The position numbers were made by a program, and so were the translations under genes. Below are positions 5,644-11,848 of a stretch of 36,395 nucleotides of DNA, one piece after another. How positions within the stretch are numbered: position 1 is the stretch's first letter; each line of letters begins with the position of its first letter. Below the pieces are notes generated by a model that did not search any database, was not told where the DNA came from, and worked only from the letters and a program-made list of their open reading frames with translations. Location: positions 1 through 36,395 of the forward strand of contig JAEELX010000085.1 of NCBI GenBank assembly GCA_016282955.1. The letters run 5' to 3'. The stretch comes from Paludibacteraceae bacterium. GTDB taxonomy: Bacteria; Bacteroidota; Bacteroidia; Bacteroidales; Paludibacteraceae.

Positions 5644-7035
5644 TTATTCATGCATTCTAATAGGGCGGACGTGGGTTCGCCAATATTCCCCTTGGGTTGC
5701 GTTGTCATATTTACCTAACACAAAGAGTTTAGAATCTGTGTATATATTACCATTTGTCCAATCCATTTGTTTATTCCCGTAAACTTTAGGCAAATCTGTA
5801 CAATAGGTACGTGTACAAGAATGATAGACAACGTAAAATTTTTCATGATTGGCATTTTCTATTACATCGCAGAATCCACCAATATTTCCTTTTTGTAGGT
5901 ACATCATTTGTAATTGTTCTATGTTCGGCATAAACCAATCCGTATAACCATAACGTTCGAAACCACAATAATCAACAGCAAAATCATAATCAATACCTTC
6001 CGAATAATTACGAGGATAGTCTGGTGCCACTTTGTAAATATGTCCATTAAAACCAAAAGTCGGAAGTTCTACGTACTCTTTATTATATTTATAACTATAC
6101 ACTTTTCCATAACCTATTCCGTTTTCATTGATAGCATATGCACGTATGTAAATAGTACCCTCTGAAACATCGTTTATTGTGGAAGTGTTTATCGTAGAAG
6201 TGAAAACATTGGTTATCGCATCTGATTTTATAATGTTTGAGGCTCCCATAATGGGTTCGAACTCTATGAGATTCCAAAGAATGCCACGCTCTTTAATCTT
6301 AGAACCACCATCGAACGTTATATTACCACCTGTTACAATATCATATCCGTTTAATTTTGGGGGAGTAGTGGTTACTACGGGGAGTCGTTCGACGTAATTA
6401 GGACCATATGCTTTAAAACGAACAATACCTGACCATTGATCCGAAGTAACATACAAAGCTCCCCAATGTGGGCGATTTAATTCTAATTTAGAACGATCAA
6501 TTTGGACTGTAATCGTGACACTTTCTCCTGGGTTAATTAACATAGGCGGATCGGAAACATTCGCTAGCCAATCACAAGAAGGAGTTATTTTGAGGTCTTT
6601 ATGACTTATCGTCCCAGGATTATATATTTGAAACGATAACATATCTTTATCTTTTCCGAAATCTAACTCATAAAAAAGATCATCTTGCATATCTAAAAAG
6701 TACAAAAATGGTATTTTCGCGATTGTATAATCTCGTTGCGTACGCTTCCCGCTTATAACTTCAACATAATCATCGTCCCATTCTATATAGCCATCTTTTG
6801 ACACAATCATTTTATAATATCCTTCTTTTAGATCAAGGATCTCATATGTACCATCTGAACCAGTCAGCGTTGTTATGCCACTTGGACGCAACTGTACGTT
6901 CGCATTTTGTATAGGTTCTCCTGTGTCTAAATCAATTATTCTACCGTAGATAGAACCATTTGCTTTATCATCTTCGCACGAAACAAATGCCAAGACGATT
7001 CCTAGTGCAAACAAGATTACAAAATGTTTTTTCAT
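5644..7035 (-). CDS. Lipoprotein with CarboxypepD-reg-like domain and C-terminal DUF1566-like domain
   Basis: Lipobox FVSCE; SIYGRIIDLDTGEPIQNANVQLRPSGITTLTGSDGTYEIL; C-terminal GYTDWFMPNIEQLQMMY...WRTHVRPIRMHE. Confidence 0.65.
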   Translation of the reverse strand: MKKHFVILFALGIVLAFVSCEDDKANGSIYGRIIDLDTGEPIQNANVQLRPSGITTLTGSDGTYEILDLKEGYYKMIVSKDGYIEWDDDYVEVISGKRTQRDYTIAKIPFLYFLDMQDDLFYELDFGKDKDMLSFQIYNPGTISHKDLKITPSCDWLANVSDPPMLINPGESVTITVQIDRSKLELNRPHWGALYVTSDQWSGIVRFKAYGPNYVERLPVVTTTPPKLNGYDIVTGGNITFDGGSKIKERGILWNLIEFEPIMGASNIIKSDAITNVFTSTINTSTINDVSEGTIYIRAYAINENGIGYGKVYSYKYNKEYVELPTFGFNGHIYKVAPDYPRNYSEGIDYDFAVDYCGFERYGYTDWFMPNIEQLQMMYLQKGNIGGFCDVIENANHEKFYVVYHSCTRTYCTDLPKVYGNKQMDWTNGNIYTDSKLFVLGKYDNATQGEYWRTHVRPIRMHE

Positions 7036-7095
7036 AGTCTTTTATATTTATAAATTTCACTATATCAGAAACAATCTATTTTACATATTCACTTT

Positions 7096-8457
7096 TTATT
7101 CATGTTTCCTAATTGGACGAACGTGGCAGTACCAATACCGAGAATTTTCAACATGCCCACCATACTCATAAAAATTATAGTGATAATCCCTTGAACCATC
7201 TTCCCAGTTAATTACATATCTACAATTATTTTGAACATAAGTTGAGGAATGATAATTTGAATAAATTGTACTGCTATTGTCTGTGGTAGTATTAAAAAAT
7301 CCCCCAATAGATTTTCTATTTTGATACATTGTTTCTAATTCTTCTATGGTATGCAAATACCAATCAGCATAACCACAATAAGTTAGGTTGTTACAATAAG
7401 CATTAGCTGCCTTCCATGAAATATAATCTTTATAAGATGTATGTGGATCGGGTGCCACTTTGTATGTATGTCCATTAAATTGAAAAGTTGGAAGACCAAT
7501 ATATTCTTTGCTGTACATATATTTATACACTGCTCCATAACTTGTACCTTTATCATTGGTAGCATATGCACGAATATAATATGTAGCATCTGATAAATTA
7601 CTGAAAGTATAAGTGAATGCACCAGTTGTCCCATCTATCTTTATAACATTTGAGTTCCCCATAACGGGATCACCTAAGGTATTCCAACATATACCGCGTT
7701 CCTTAATCGTAAAACCACCATCGGAAGTTACATTACCACCTGTTACAATATCATAGCCGTTCAATTTTAGAGTAGTTGTAGTTACTACGGGGAATCCATA
7801 TGTTTCGCTACCAGTTGCTTTTATCTGAATCACATAATATCCATTATCATCAGATGTAAAATGCAAATTACTTACATTCGTACCACGCTTTAATTTAGAA
7901 CGTTCAATATAGACAGTAATCGTAGCACTCCCACCCGAATTAAGTAATTGTGGCATGTCGGAAATACTGGCAATCCAATCACAAGAATGAGTTATTTTGC
8001 AATTTGTAAGATTTATCACTCCTGTATTGTGTATTTGAAACGATAACATATCTTTATTTGTTCCAAAATTCAACTCATTAATTTTATAATTTTGCATATC
8101 GGTAATAGTGATAGATGCTGTTCTTTTCTTTATTTGGACATCACGTTTCATACGTTTCCCATTCCTGACTTCGATGACATAATTATCTAATAAATCTGTG
8201 TACCCGTCTTTTGACACTGTAAGTTTATAATCTCCTTCTTTTATATCAAGGATCTCATATGTACCATCTGAACCTGTCAGCGTTGTTATACCACTGGGGC
8301 GCAACTGTACGTTCGCATTTTGTACCGGTTCTCCTGTGGCGAAGTCGGTTATGGTTCCATAAATAGAACCATTAATGGTAGTTTCTTCTTTTTCTTTACA
8401 AGAAACGAATGCTAAAACAAATCCCAATAGGAATAAGGAAATAAAATGTTTGTTCAT
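7096..8457 (-). CDS. Lipoprotein with CarboxypepD-reg-like and DUF1566-like domains, paralogue of 5644-7035
   Basis: Lipobox FVSCK; near-identical NANVQLRPSGITTLTGSDGTYEILD; C-terminal YWYCHVRPIRKHE. Confidence 0.65.
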   Translation of the reverse strand: MNKHFISLFLLGFVLAFVSCKEKEETTINGSIYGTITDFATGEPVQNANVQLRPSGITTLTGSDGTYEILDIKEGDYKLTVSKDGYTDLLDNYVIEVRNGKRMKRDVQIKKRTASITITDMQNYKINELNFGTNKDMLSFQIHNTGVINLTNCKITHSCDWIASISDMPQLLNSGGSATITVYIERSKLKRGTNVSNLHFTSDDNGYYVIQIKATGSETYGFPVVTTTTLKLNGYDIVTGGNVTSDGGFTIKERGICWNTLGDPVMGNSNVIKIDGTTGAFTYTFSNLSDATYYIRAYATNDKGTSYGAVYKYMYSKEYIGLPTFQFNGHTYKVAPDPHTSYKDYISWKAANAYCNNLTYCGYADWYLHTIEELETMYQNRKSIGGFFNTTTDNSSTIYSNYHSSTYVQNNCRYVINWEDGSRDYHYNFYEYGGHVENSRYWYCHVRPIRKHE

Positions 8458-8517
8458 ATTTTTAATTACTTACAGATTTATTATTTTGCATATATAAAAG
8501 TTTTTAAAATATGCGAT

Positions 8518-8844
8518 TTATTCTTTTTTTAATGCAAATGTTACTTCTTCTTTTTCACCAGAAACTAAATTTACTGTTTTTCGATCTGTTCTATACCCCT
8601 GCATTTGTGCAGTAATGGTATATTGCTGAGGTTGCAAATCTTCAAACTGATACGTTCCCAAACTTCCTGTATAACGAGTTTTAGCAGTTGGCATCAGTGT
8701 CAACAGCACACCCTGTAAAGGTTCATTCGTATCAACGTCCAATACTGTCCCATAAATAGAAATTGTCGTGTCTATGATTTTTTTCTCACATCCGATAAAT
8801 AACAAAGGTAAACAGAGTATTGCAAAACATATTAATTTTTTCAT
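8518..8844 (-). CDS. Small lipoprotein, CarboxypepD-reg-like domain only
   Basis: Lipobox FIGCE; SIYGTVLDVDTNEPLQGVLLTLMPTAKTRYTGSLGTYQFEDL. Confidence 0.65.
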   Translation of the reverse strand: MKKLICFAILCLPLLFIGCEKKIIDTTISIYGTVLDVDTNEPLQGVLLTLMPTAKTRYTGSLGTYQFEDLQPQQYTITAQMQGYRTDRKTVNLVSGEKEEVTFALKKE

Positions 8845-10975: not shown

Positions 10976-11401
10976 CTATTTTAACGGCGTTTCGGCATTT
11001 TCGTTTTGTTTATCATTTTTCATTAATAATGTTATTGTATATTCGTAAAGATCATCTTTAAATTCCCATCTTCCATCAATAAAGATTTCTGCAAGAATTT
11101 GGGTTTTCCCCTTATCAATTATAGTATTTCCATTCTTATCCTTGACCTCTTCCCTGAAAGTCCCTATATATAAGGTTTTGTTAATAAGTAGAGGCATTAT
11201 ATCGTTAATTGCCGCAGATTTAGCCGCTTCTAATGTGTATCCACTTCCTACTCCGTGTGCATATACCTTAAATCTTGGATTCAAAGCATAATTATCATCA
11301 ACCATTTGTACATCTACAATCGGTTTGGATGCTTTCATTGGCATACATGTTACTATTCCGAAAGAAATAATCAACAAAAAATTAAAATACTGTTTCATCA
11401 T
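10976..11401 (-). CDS. Short LPP20-like exported protein
   Basis: Signal peptide; VYAHGVGSGYTLEAAKSAAINDIMPLL. Confidence 0.45.
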   Translation of the reverse strand: MMKQYFNFLLIISFGIVTCMPMKASKPIVDVQMVDDNYALNPRFKVYAHGVGSGYTLEAAKSAAINDIMPLLINKTLYIGTFREEVKDKNGNTIIDKGKTQILAEIFIDGRWEFKDDLYEYTITLLMKNDKQNENAETPLK

Positions 11402-11427: not shown

Positions 11428-11665
11428 ACATAAAAAGAAGACGCAGACCTCACTCGTTGCCTATTCACGAACTGAGGCCTTCGCATGCCGATAAGTCAAA
11501 TAAACAACAATGAAACCTACGCCGATATGACAACTGCCTGCTTAGAACAGCAGAGCAAGTATGAACGTCATACCCATAGGCATCTGTTGATTACTTTGTT
11601 TCTGACTTATCAATTAAAAGTTTGCGAAGCTTTCAGTTCGTCAATAACAAAGCGTCAATAAACGC
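11428..11665 (-). ncRNA. Candidate structured RNA with 6S-like rod architecture
   Basis: Long-range pairing of 11467-11484 with 11624-11641, 11490-11498 with 11603-11611, 11526-11531 with 11567-11572, apical hairpin 11538-11553; U-rich 3' end (CUUCUUUUUAUG); no CDS explains it. Confidence 0.55.
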
Positions 11666-11848
11666 CATCAATATGTACTGAATCCCTCTAACCCATAGTC
11701 AAACGACTATTCGGCGTAGCAGAATTCCGCGAAAAAAGTGCCTTTTTGTGTCAACCACATTTTGACCCTTTTTCCGTTGCGAAATTACTACATATTTTTT
11801 AATACCAAAATAAAAATTATATCGTTGTATATCAACCAATTAAAATCC

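Follow-up and report, generated by a model that had tools for sequence, protein, structure and literature searches.

The question raised by this locus is what kind of RNA is encoded on the minus strand between positions 11428 and 11665 of the window, i.e. of the whole 36,395-nucleotide stretch of Paludibacteraceae DNA analysed here. The initial annotation had described a rod-shaped structured RNA at this place, and had proposed either 6S RNA or a long leader of downstream LPP20-like genes as its identity. That the RNA is structured is borne out by folding: its minimum free energy is -83.7 kcal/mol, compared with a mean of -58.3 +/- 4.65 kcal/mol for dinucleotide-shuffled sequences (z = -5.46), and none of 200 shuffles folds as well. 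All of the arms named in that annotation were recovered with the pairing described, namely ACGAACTGA/TCAGTTCGT, CTTCGC/GCGAAG, GATAAGTCA/TGACTTATC, CCTA/TAGG, TATGAC/GTCATA and the apical hairpin. The extent had to be revised, however: the structure stands, but 238 nt is too short, and the real unit reaches from a 5' hairpin (11680-11728) to a U-tract (down to ~11431).

The element matches no family of Rfam 15 above the gathering threshold (the only nearby hit, DUF805b, lies outside it), the copy in the window has no Rfam match at E <= 10 either, and a search of the open literature, which did not extend to subscription papers, found no description of such a family; this leader RNA family is apparently undescribed. 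Copies are numerous. With blastn, three were found in its own genome and, among 149 relatives, others in 65 genomes, nearly all of the same genus. A fixed pattern of the first conserved block occurred, among the matches listed, mainly in ruminant or gut MAGs labelled Paludibacteraceae or Bacteroidales, and also in some Muribaculaceae and one Lentimicrobiaceae; of 118 stretches inspected, 6 lacked the element. From 42 main-family copies a covariance model was derived, which detects five copies in the own genome. With counts that depend on the model thresholds and genomes that are mostly draft MAGs, it places the element in 38 of 39 members of the genus at >=90% completeness (between 1 and 30 copies each); within the family 29 of 40 genomes have it, within Bacteroidales 78 of 394 (39 of 203 genera), and in an even phylum sample 2 of 397, both of them Bacteroidales and the own genome included. 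Two Phocaeicola plasmids likewise carry the element, 66 nt before a hypothetical gene. None was found in the annotated phages searched, and one viral contig fits the short seed pattern, not the covariance model. A short version (~175-190 nt) lacks most of the apical hairpin and keeps all four of the segments described below; it is represented by the order-wide copies L286, L295, L299, L300, L301 and L304 and by L201 of the own genome, and its pairing is exemplified by GCGUUUUUGCUUAUU with AAUAAGUGAAAAACGC in L300.

Read 5' to 3' along the minus strand, the unit begins with the hairpin P0 (GGAATTC...GGGATTC, 11680-11728), the 5' strand of which, TGCTACGCC, shows complementarity to segment 3, as between GCAGAAGCCCA and UGGGCUUCUGC in L242. 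Segment 1, GCGUUUAUUGACGCUUUG (11648-11665), is either folded into a mini-hairpin in the rod state or paired with segment 2 in the predicted terminator state. The 5' strand of the rod base (11620-11647) comprises the variable stem ACGAACUG and then CUUCGCA, which lies within a small GAAA/UUU hairpin and is flanked by covarying GAAA/UUUC arms (z = 7.0). Segment 2, CAAAGUAAUCAACAGAUGCCUAUGGG (11573-11598), a partner of segment 1 or segment 3, leads into the apical hairpin GGUAUGAC...GUCAUAUC (11524-11575), which is common to both folds and 98.8% paired in A3, and this in turn into segment 3, GGCGUAGGUUUCAUUGUUGUUUAUUUGAC (11495-11523), a partner of segment 2 in the rod or of segment 4 in the predicted terminator. 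In the 3' strand of the rod base (11456-11490), UGCGAAG is placed between GGC/GCC and followed by UCAGUUCGU. Segment 4, GAGUGAGGUCUGCGUC (11440-11455), would be the 3' arm of the terminator hairpin, with segment 3 or the end of the rod base as its partner, and the U-tract (11431-11439) ends the conserved unit, the homology between copies stopping there. The U-rich tract that had been noted after the rod is a conserved feature, with 78-95% U at +1 to +7 past the segment-4 helix in 87 copies. The weaker outer pairing of the initial annotation proved to belong to the rod in its closed form, where segment 1 and the U-tract end pair, and its GACGC/GCGTC end additionally forms a strictly conserved mini-hairpin, GCGUUUAUUGACGC.

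Two mutually exclusive folds can be drawn from these segments, and both are conserved. RNAalifold returns the rod from 15 diverged copies, with double changes at nearly all base-stem pairs, and from 42 closer copies the other fold, with a hairpin directly before the U-tract. In a four-segment scheme the rod (fold A) consists of the pairing 2:3 and the hypervariable base stem, and the other (fold B) of 1:2 and 3:4; in the 42 main-family copies, standard pairs make up 95.2% of fold A and 98.4% of fold B. GACCUCG/CGAGGUC, at one stage regarded as the sole terminator, was replaced once RNAalifold on these 42 copies had revealed the 3:4 pairing.

Independent of any alignment of pairs is a swap test, in which the duplex energy of a segment with its own partner is compared with that obtained with partners from other copies. 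Among 83 order-wide copies with less than 75% identity, this test gave z = -36.4 for the two strands of the base, -14.4 for 2:3, -14.9 for 3:4, -11.0 for 1:2 (the A3 helices being 97.8-98.8% paired) and -4.6 for the outer 1:4 pairing, while six control pairings, including 1:3 and 2:4, stayed at |z| < 1.3; the scores ignore phylogeny, but the controls carry equal relatedness and stay flat. For P0, tested in the order-wide copies, the two arms gave z = -17.0, and the 5' strand paired to segment 3 gave z = -4.4. An earlier run on 64 copies agrees, although segment 1 was fixed there by the search pattern, so that 1:2 is tested mainly by the 83-copy run. Neither 1:2 nor 3:4 is part of the covariance model by which the copies were found. 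An alignment of 87 copies, made to fit the rod, contains 817 cells in which both sides of a rod pair have changed; shuffles give 241. The compensatory changes among homologues by which the initial annotation had proposed to judge the fold are, hence, abundant in the 15-, 42-, 83- and 87-copy comparisons. Since segment 4 has two candidate partners, i.e. segment 3 (core z = -10.3) or the end of the base strand, with which it forms a compact local hairpin (z = -7.6), the exact terminator hairpin may be either of the two. Finally, the two 7-nt loops of the base stem, CUUCGCA and UGCGAAG, match at 6.95 of 7 positions in native and 4.18 in swapped combinations, and a loop-loop contact between them is for this reason possible.

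The position of the element relative to genes is equally regular. A promoter-like motif previously seen near the 5' end, TACATATTG, is instead a conserved box of the RNA itself (ACATATT in most copies). The candidate promoter is located at 11780-11809 of the minus strand, and is composed of a -33 TTTG (11809-11806), an 18-nt spacer and a -7 element TAATTTCG (11787-11780) with one mismatch to TAnnTTTG, the -7 promoter box of Bacteroidetes. Such a box occurs at most 130 nt upstream of 110 of the 128 main-family copies (9.4 in shuffled sequences) and 73 of the 86 order-wide copies (8.5 in shuffled sequences). Between copies that are 87-95% identical, the flanks are mostly unrelated and homology runs from near the -33 box to the U-tract, so that the copied or exchanged unit is the promoter together with the leader. 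L003 and L039, from two species, are 99.6% identical and share the downstream gene but not the upstream neighbourhood, which suggests a joint transfer of element and gene. The element and the gene that follows it share a strand in 135 cases and differ in 6 in the first set, and in 66 and 5, respectively, in the order-wide set (201 of 212 combined), whereas the ratio for the gene upstream is only 86:46 and 25:22. Typically about 66 nt separate the end of the element from the start codon, so the ribosome site is not covered by it; the U's after the putative terminator and an end well before the ribosome site make control of transcription elongation the natural reading.

In the window, the first downstream gene (10976-11401, minus strand; 141 aa) starts ~30 nt past the U-tract and has an N-terminal hydrophobic, signal-like stretch. 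The proposal of a long leader of LPP20-like genes can thus be kept in its first half, given the same-strand genes just described; its second is not confirmed, as none of the window's downstream proteins matched Pfam at E <= 0.01. The genes behind the copies are unrelated to each other; by automatic family matches to mechanically called first ORFs, they encode leucine-rich repeat proteins of the BspA type, lipoproteins (PEGA, CsgG and others), restriction-modification proteins such as DNA methyltransferases, and many unknowns. Diverged copies from Muribaculaceae and related MAGs (L092, L095, L114, L136, L165 and L187) precede DNA methyltransferase, helicase and restriction genes, which suggests their use in defence islands. 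Farther downstream of the leader's gene cluster, the window contains tandem paralogous lipoprotein-like genes (5644-8844; 463, 453 and 108 aa) whose N-terminal domains resemble one another. At 10 of 40 loci scanned, DUF805b (RF02914) lies between U-tract and start codon (L003:274-308, L012:1435-1470, L017:1319-1353, L026:1443-1477, L033:1828-1862 and L039:2281-2315; also L058, L059, L171 and L192). It is a cis-regulatory motif at the same loci, but a separate one of 35 nt, downstream of the element and absent from the window, and may be a second cis element that often works together with the switch.

Conserved, mutually exclusive pairings of a putative antiterminator and terminator, a U-tract directly after the predicted terminator stem, and a position in the 5' UTR of a co-directional gene are what is found in attenuators. 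We consider it likely that the element is a transcription attenuator, which applies one shared signal to many unrelated accessory genes by means of a ~350-nt promoter-plus-leader cassette, and that it probably switches the genes downstream on or off. In the proposed mechanism, which we infer from sequence comparison, the cassette would be transcribed, and in fold A segments 2 and 3 would pair, with the hypervariable base stem closing the rod; the 3' end including the U-tract would then be tied up, so that the rod would act as an antiterminator and the gene would be on. In fold B, 1:2 would pair, and segment 4 would be taken up by segment 3, or by the base strand close by, in a hairpin immediately ahead of the U-tract, giving an intrinsic terminator and leaving the gene off. 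Segment 3 would thus have rival partners in segments 2 and 4, as segment 2 would in segments 1 and 3, the choice being biased by a cellular factor or ligand. In the full-length RNA, forced-fold energies favour the rod by ~11 kcal/mol, and it is the more stable fold in 86 of 87 copies. Termination would, because of this difference, need kinetic control or a factor, and the default is probably readthrough, or else the choice falls during transcription, before segment 4 appears. The element has conserved internal loops; the gene context of the copies, whose downstream genes share no common pathway, points to no ligand.

The logic of 1:2 and 3:4 as terminator versus 2:3 as antiterminator is that of the four-segment attenuators in the leaders of the trp, thr and phe operons, and one short copy has a weak, sub-threshold similarity to Thr_leader (E 0.06) and Phe_leader (E 1.7). 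Unlike these, the element has a hypervariable base stem, loop-loop complementarity and many copies before unrelated genes, and, judged by eye, the aligned copies contain no conserved start codon upstream of segment 1 for a leader peptide. The c-di-GMP (GEMM) riboswitches are a single RNA class with many copies before diverse surface genes and with terminator switching. The element resembles them in its multiple copies before diverse surface genes and in its predicted terminator switching, but has no Rfam match and carries the promoter inside the repeated unit. EAR (epsC) and put antiterminator RNAs and the UpxY/LoaP systems, too, let the polymerase pass terminators before accessory operons with the help of leader RNAs; here, by contrast, terminator and antiterminator would be alternative folds of the element itself. 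A NusG paralog of the UpxY or LoaP type was considered as the regulator and rejected: the own genome (G000, 91% complete) has a single NusG and no paralog, which argues against such a partner.

Among the other explanations, 6S RNA (RF00013, RF01685) has in its favour the long rod with internal loops, i.e. terminal stem, bubble and apical stem, at the right length. It is nevertheless scarcely credible: no Rfam 6S model matches, at the curated cut-offs or at E <= 10, and where 6S would be expected to stand alone, once or twice per genome, there are five copies in the own genome, each a leader before a different gene, and up to 30 in relatives, with a predicted U-tract terminator and a second, mutually exclusive conserved fold, which 6S lacks. 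As 6S-Flavo has no match in the own genome, its 6S RNA was not located; a separate Bacteroidales-1 RNA (RF01693) is present there in full length (G000:C76:689-894, L196; 59.2 bits, just below the 60-bit cut-off). That Bacteroidales-1 is a 6S homologue was considered and dropped, since the publication checked on this point makes no such statement. The copies, with their own promoter and strong U-tract terminator, could also be trans-acting small RNAs, stable transcripts of ~300 nt that stop at the terminator, the following gene being there incidentally; multi-copy sRNA families exist. We regard this as unlikely, given that 201 of the 212 scored cases have a gene on the same strand ~66 nt downstream, that antiterminator pairings would be conserved to no purpose in a simple sRNA, and that the base stem is hypervariable in sequence while its pairing is kept, the reverse of what a target-binding region common to the copies would show.

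The dispersal of the cassette, with as many as 30 copies scattered over one genome, sharp ends within unrelated flanks and plasmid copies in Phocaeicola, could alternatively reflect a repeat that is mobile or prone to recombination (a MITE or something like it), the hairpins of which act as DNA and the promoter of which is carried along. The cassette-like spread is real, but a MITE or transposon was rejected, as neither terminal inverted repeats nor target-site duplications could be made out in eight inspected pairs of copies; the strict gene orientation and spacing, the covariation of two alternative RNA folds followed by a U-tract, and the retention of the same downstream gene by L003 and L039 likewise make a mobile repeat quite improbable. 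The greater stability of the rod in nearly all copies would also suit a constitutively open leader, in which the rod stabilises the mRNA or modifies RNA polymerase in the manner of put or EAR antiterminators and fold B is a mere folding intermediate. Segment 4 with its U-tract and the 3:4 pairing are, however, kept by compensatory change across the order, and we give this explanation very little credence.

Taken as an attenuator, the element could represent a class of portable RNA switches that is new: promoter and leader would form a self-contained cassette, which would have spread across the genomes and plasmids of Bacteroidales and would place dozens of unrelated accessory genes (surface, restriction-modification and lipoprotein genes) under one signal by terminator/antiterminator refolding. 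We put this wider proposal forward tentatively, at a little under even chances; such a switch would possibly be a new riboswitch or a protein-responsive regulon. Bacteroidales dominate the gut, yet few of their regulatory RNA classes are known. The leader family occurs in roughly one in five of the sampled Bacteroidales genomes, reaches 30 copies in a single genome and is also found on Phocaeicola plasmids; if the proposal holds, the surface and defence genes behind it would form a large regulon, and the element would be a ready-made genetic switch, the sensed signal of which would be directly testable in the culturable species Phocaeicola vulgatus and P. dorei.
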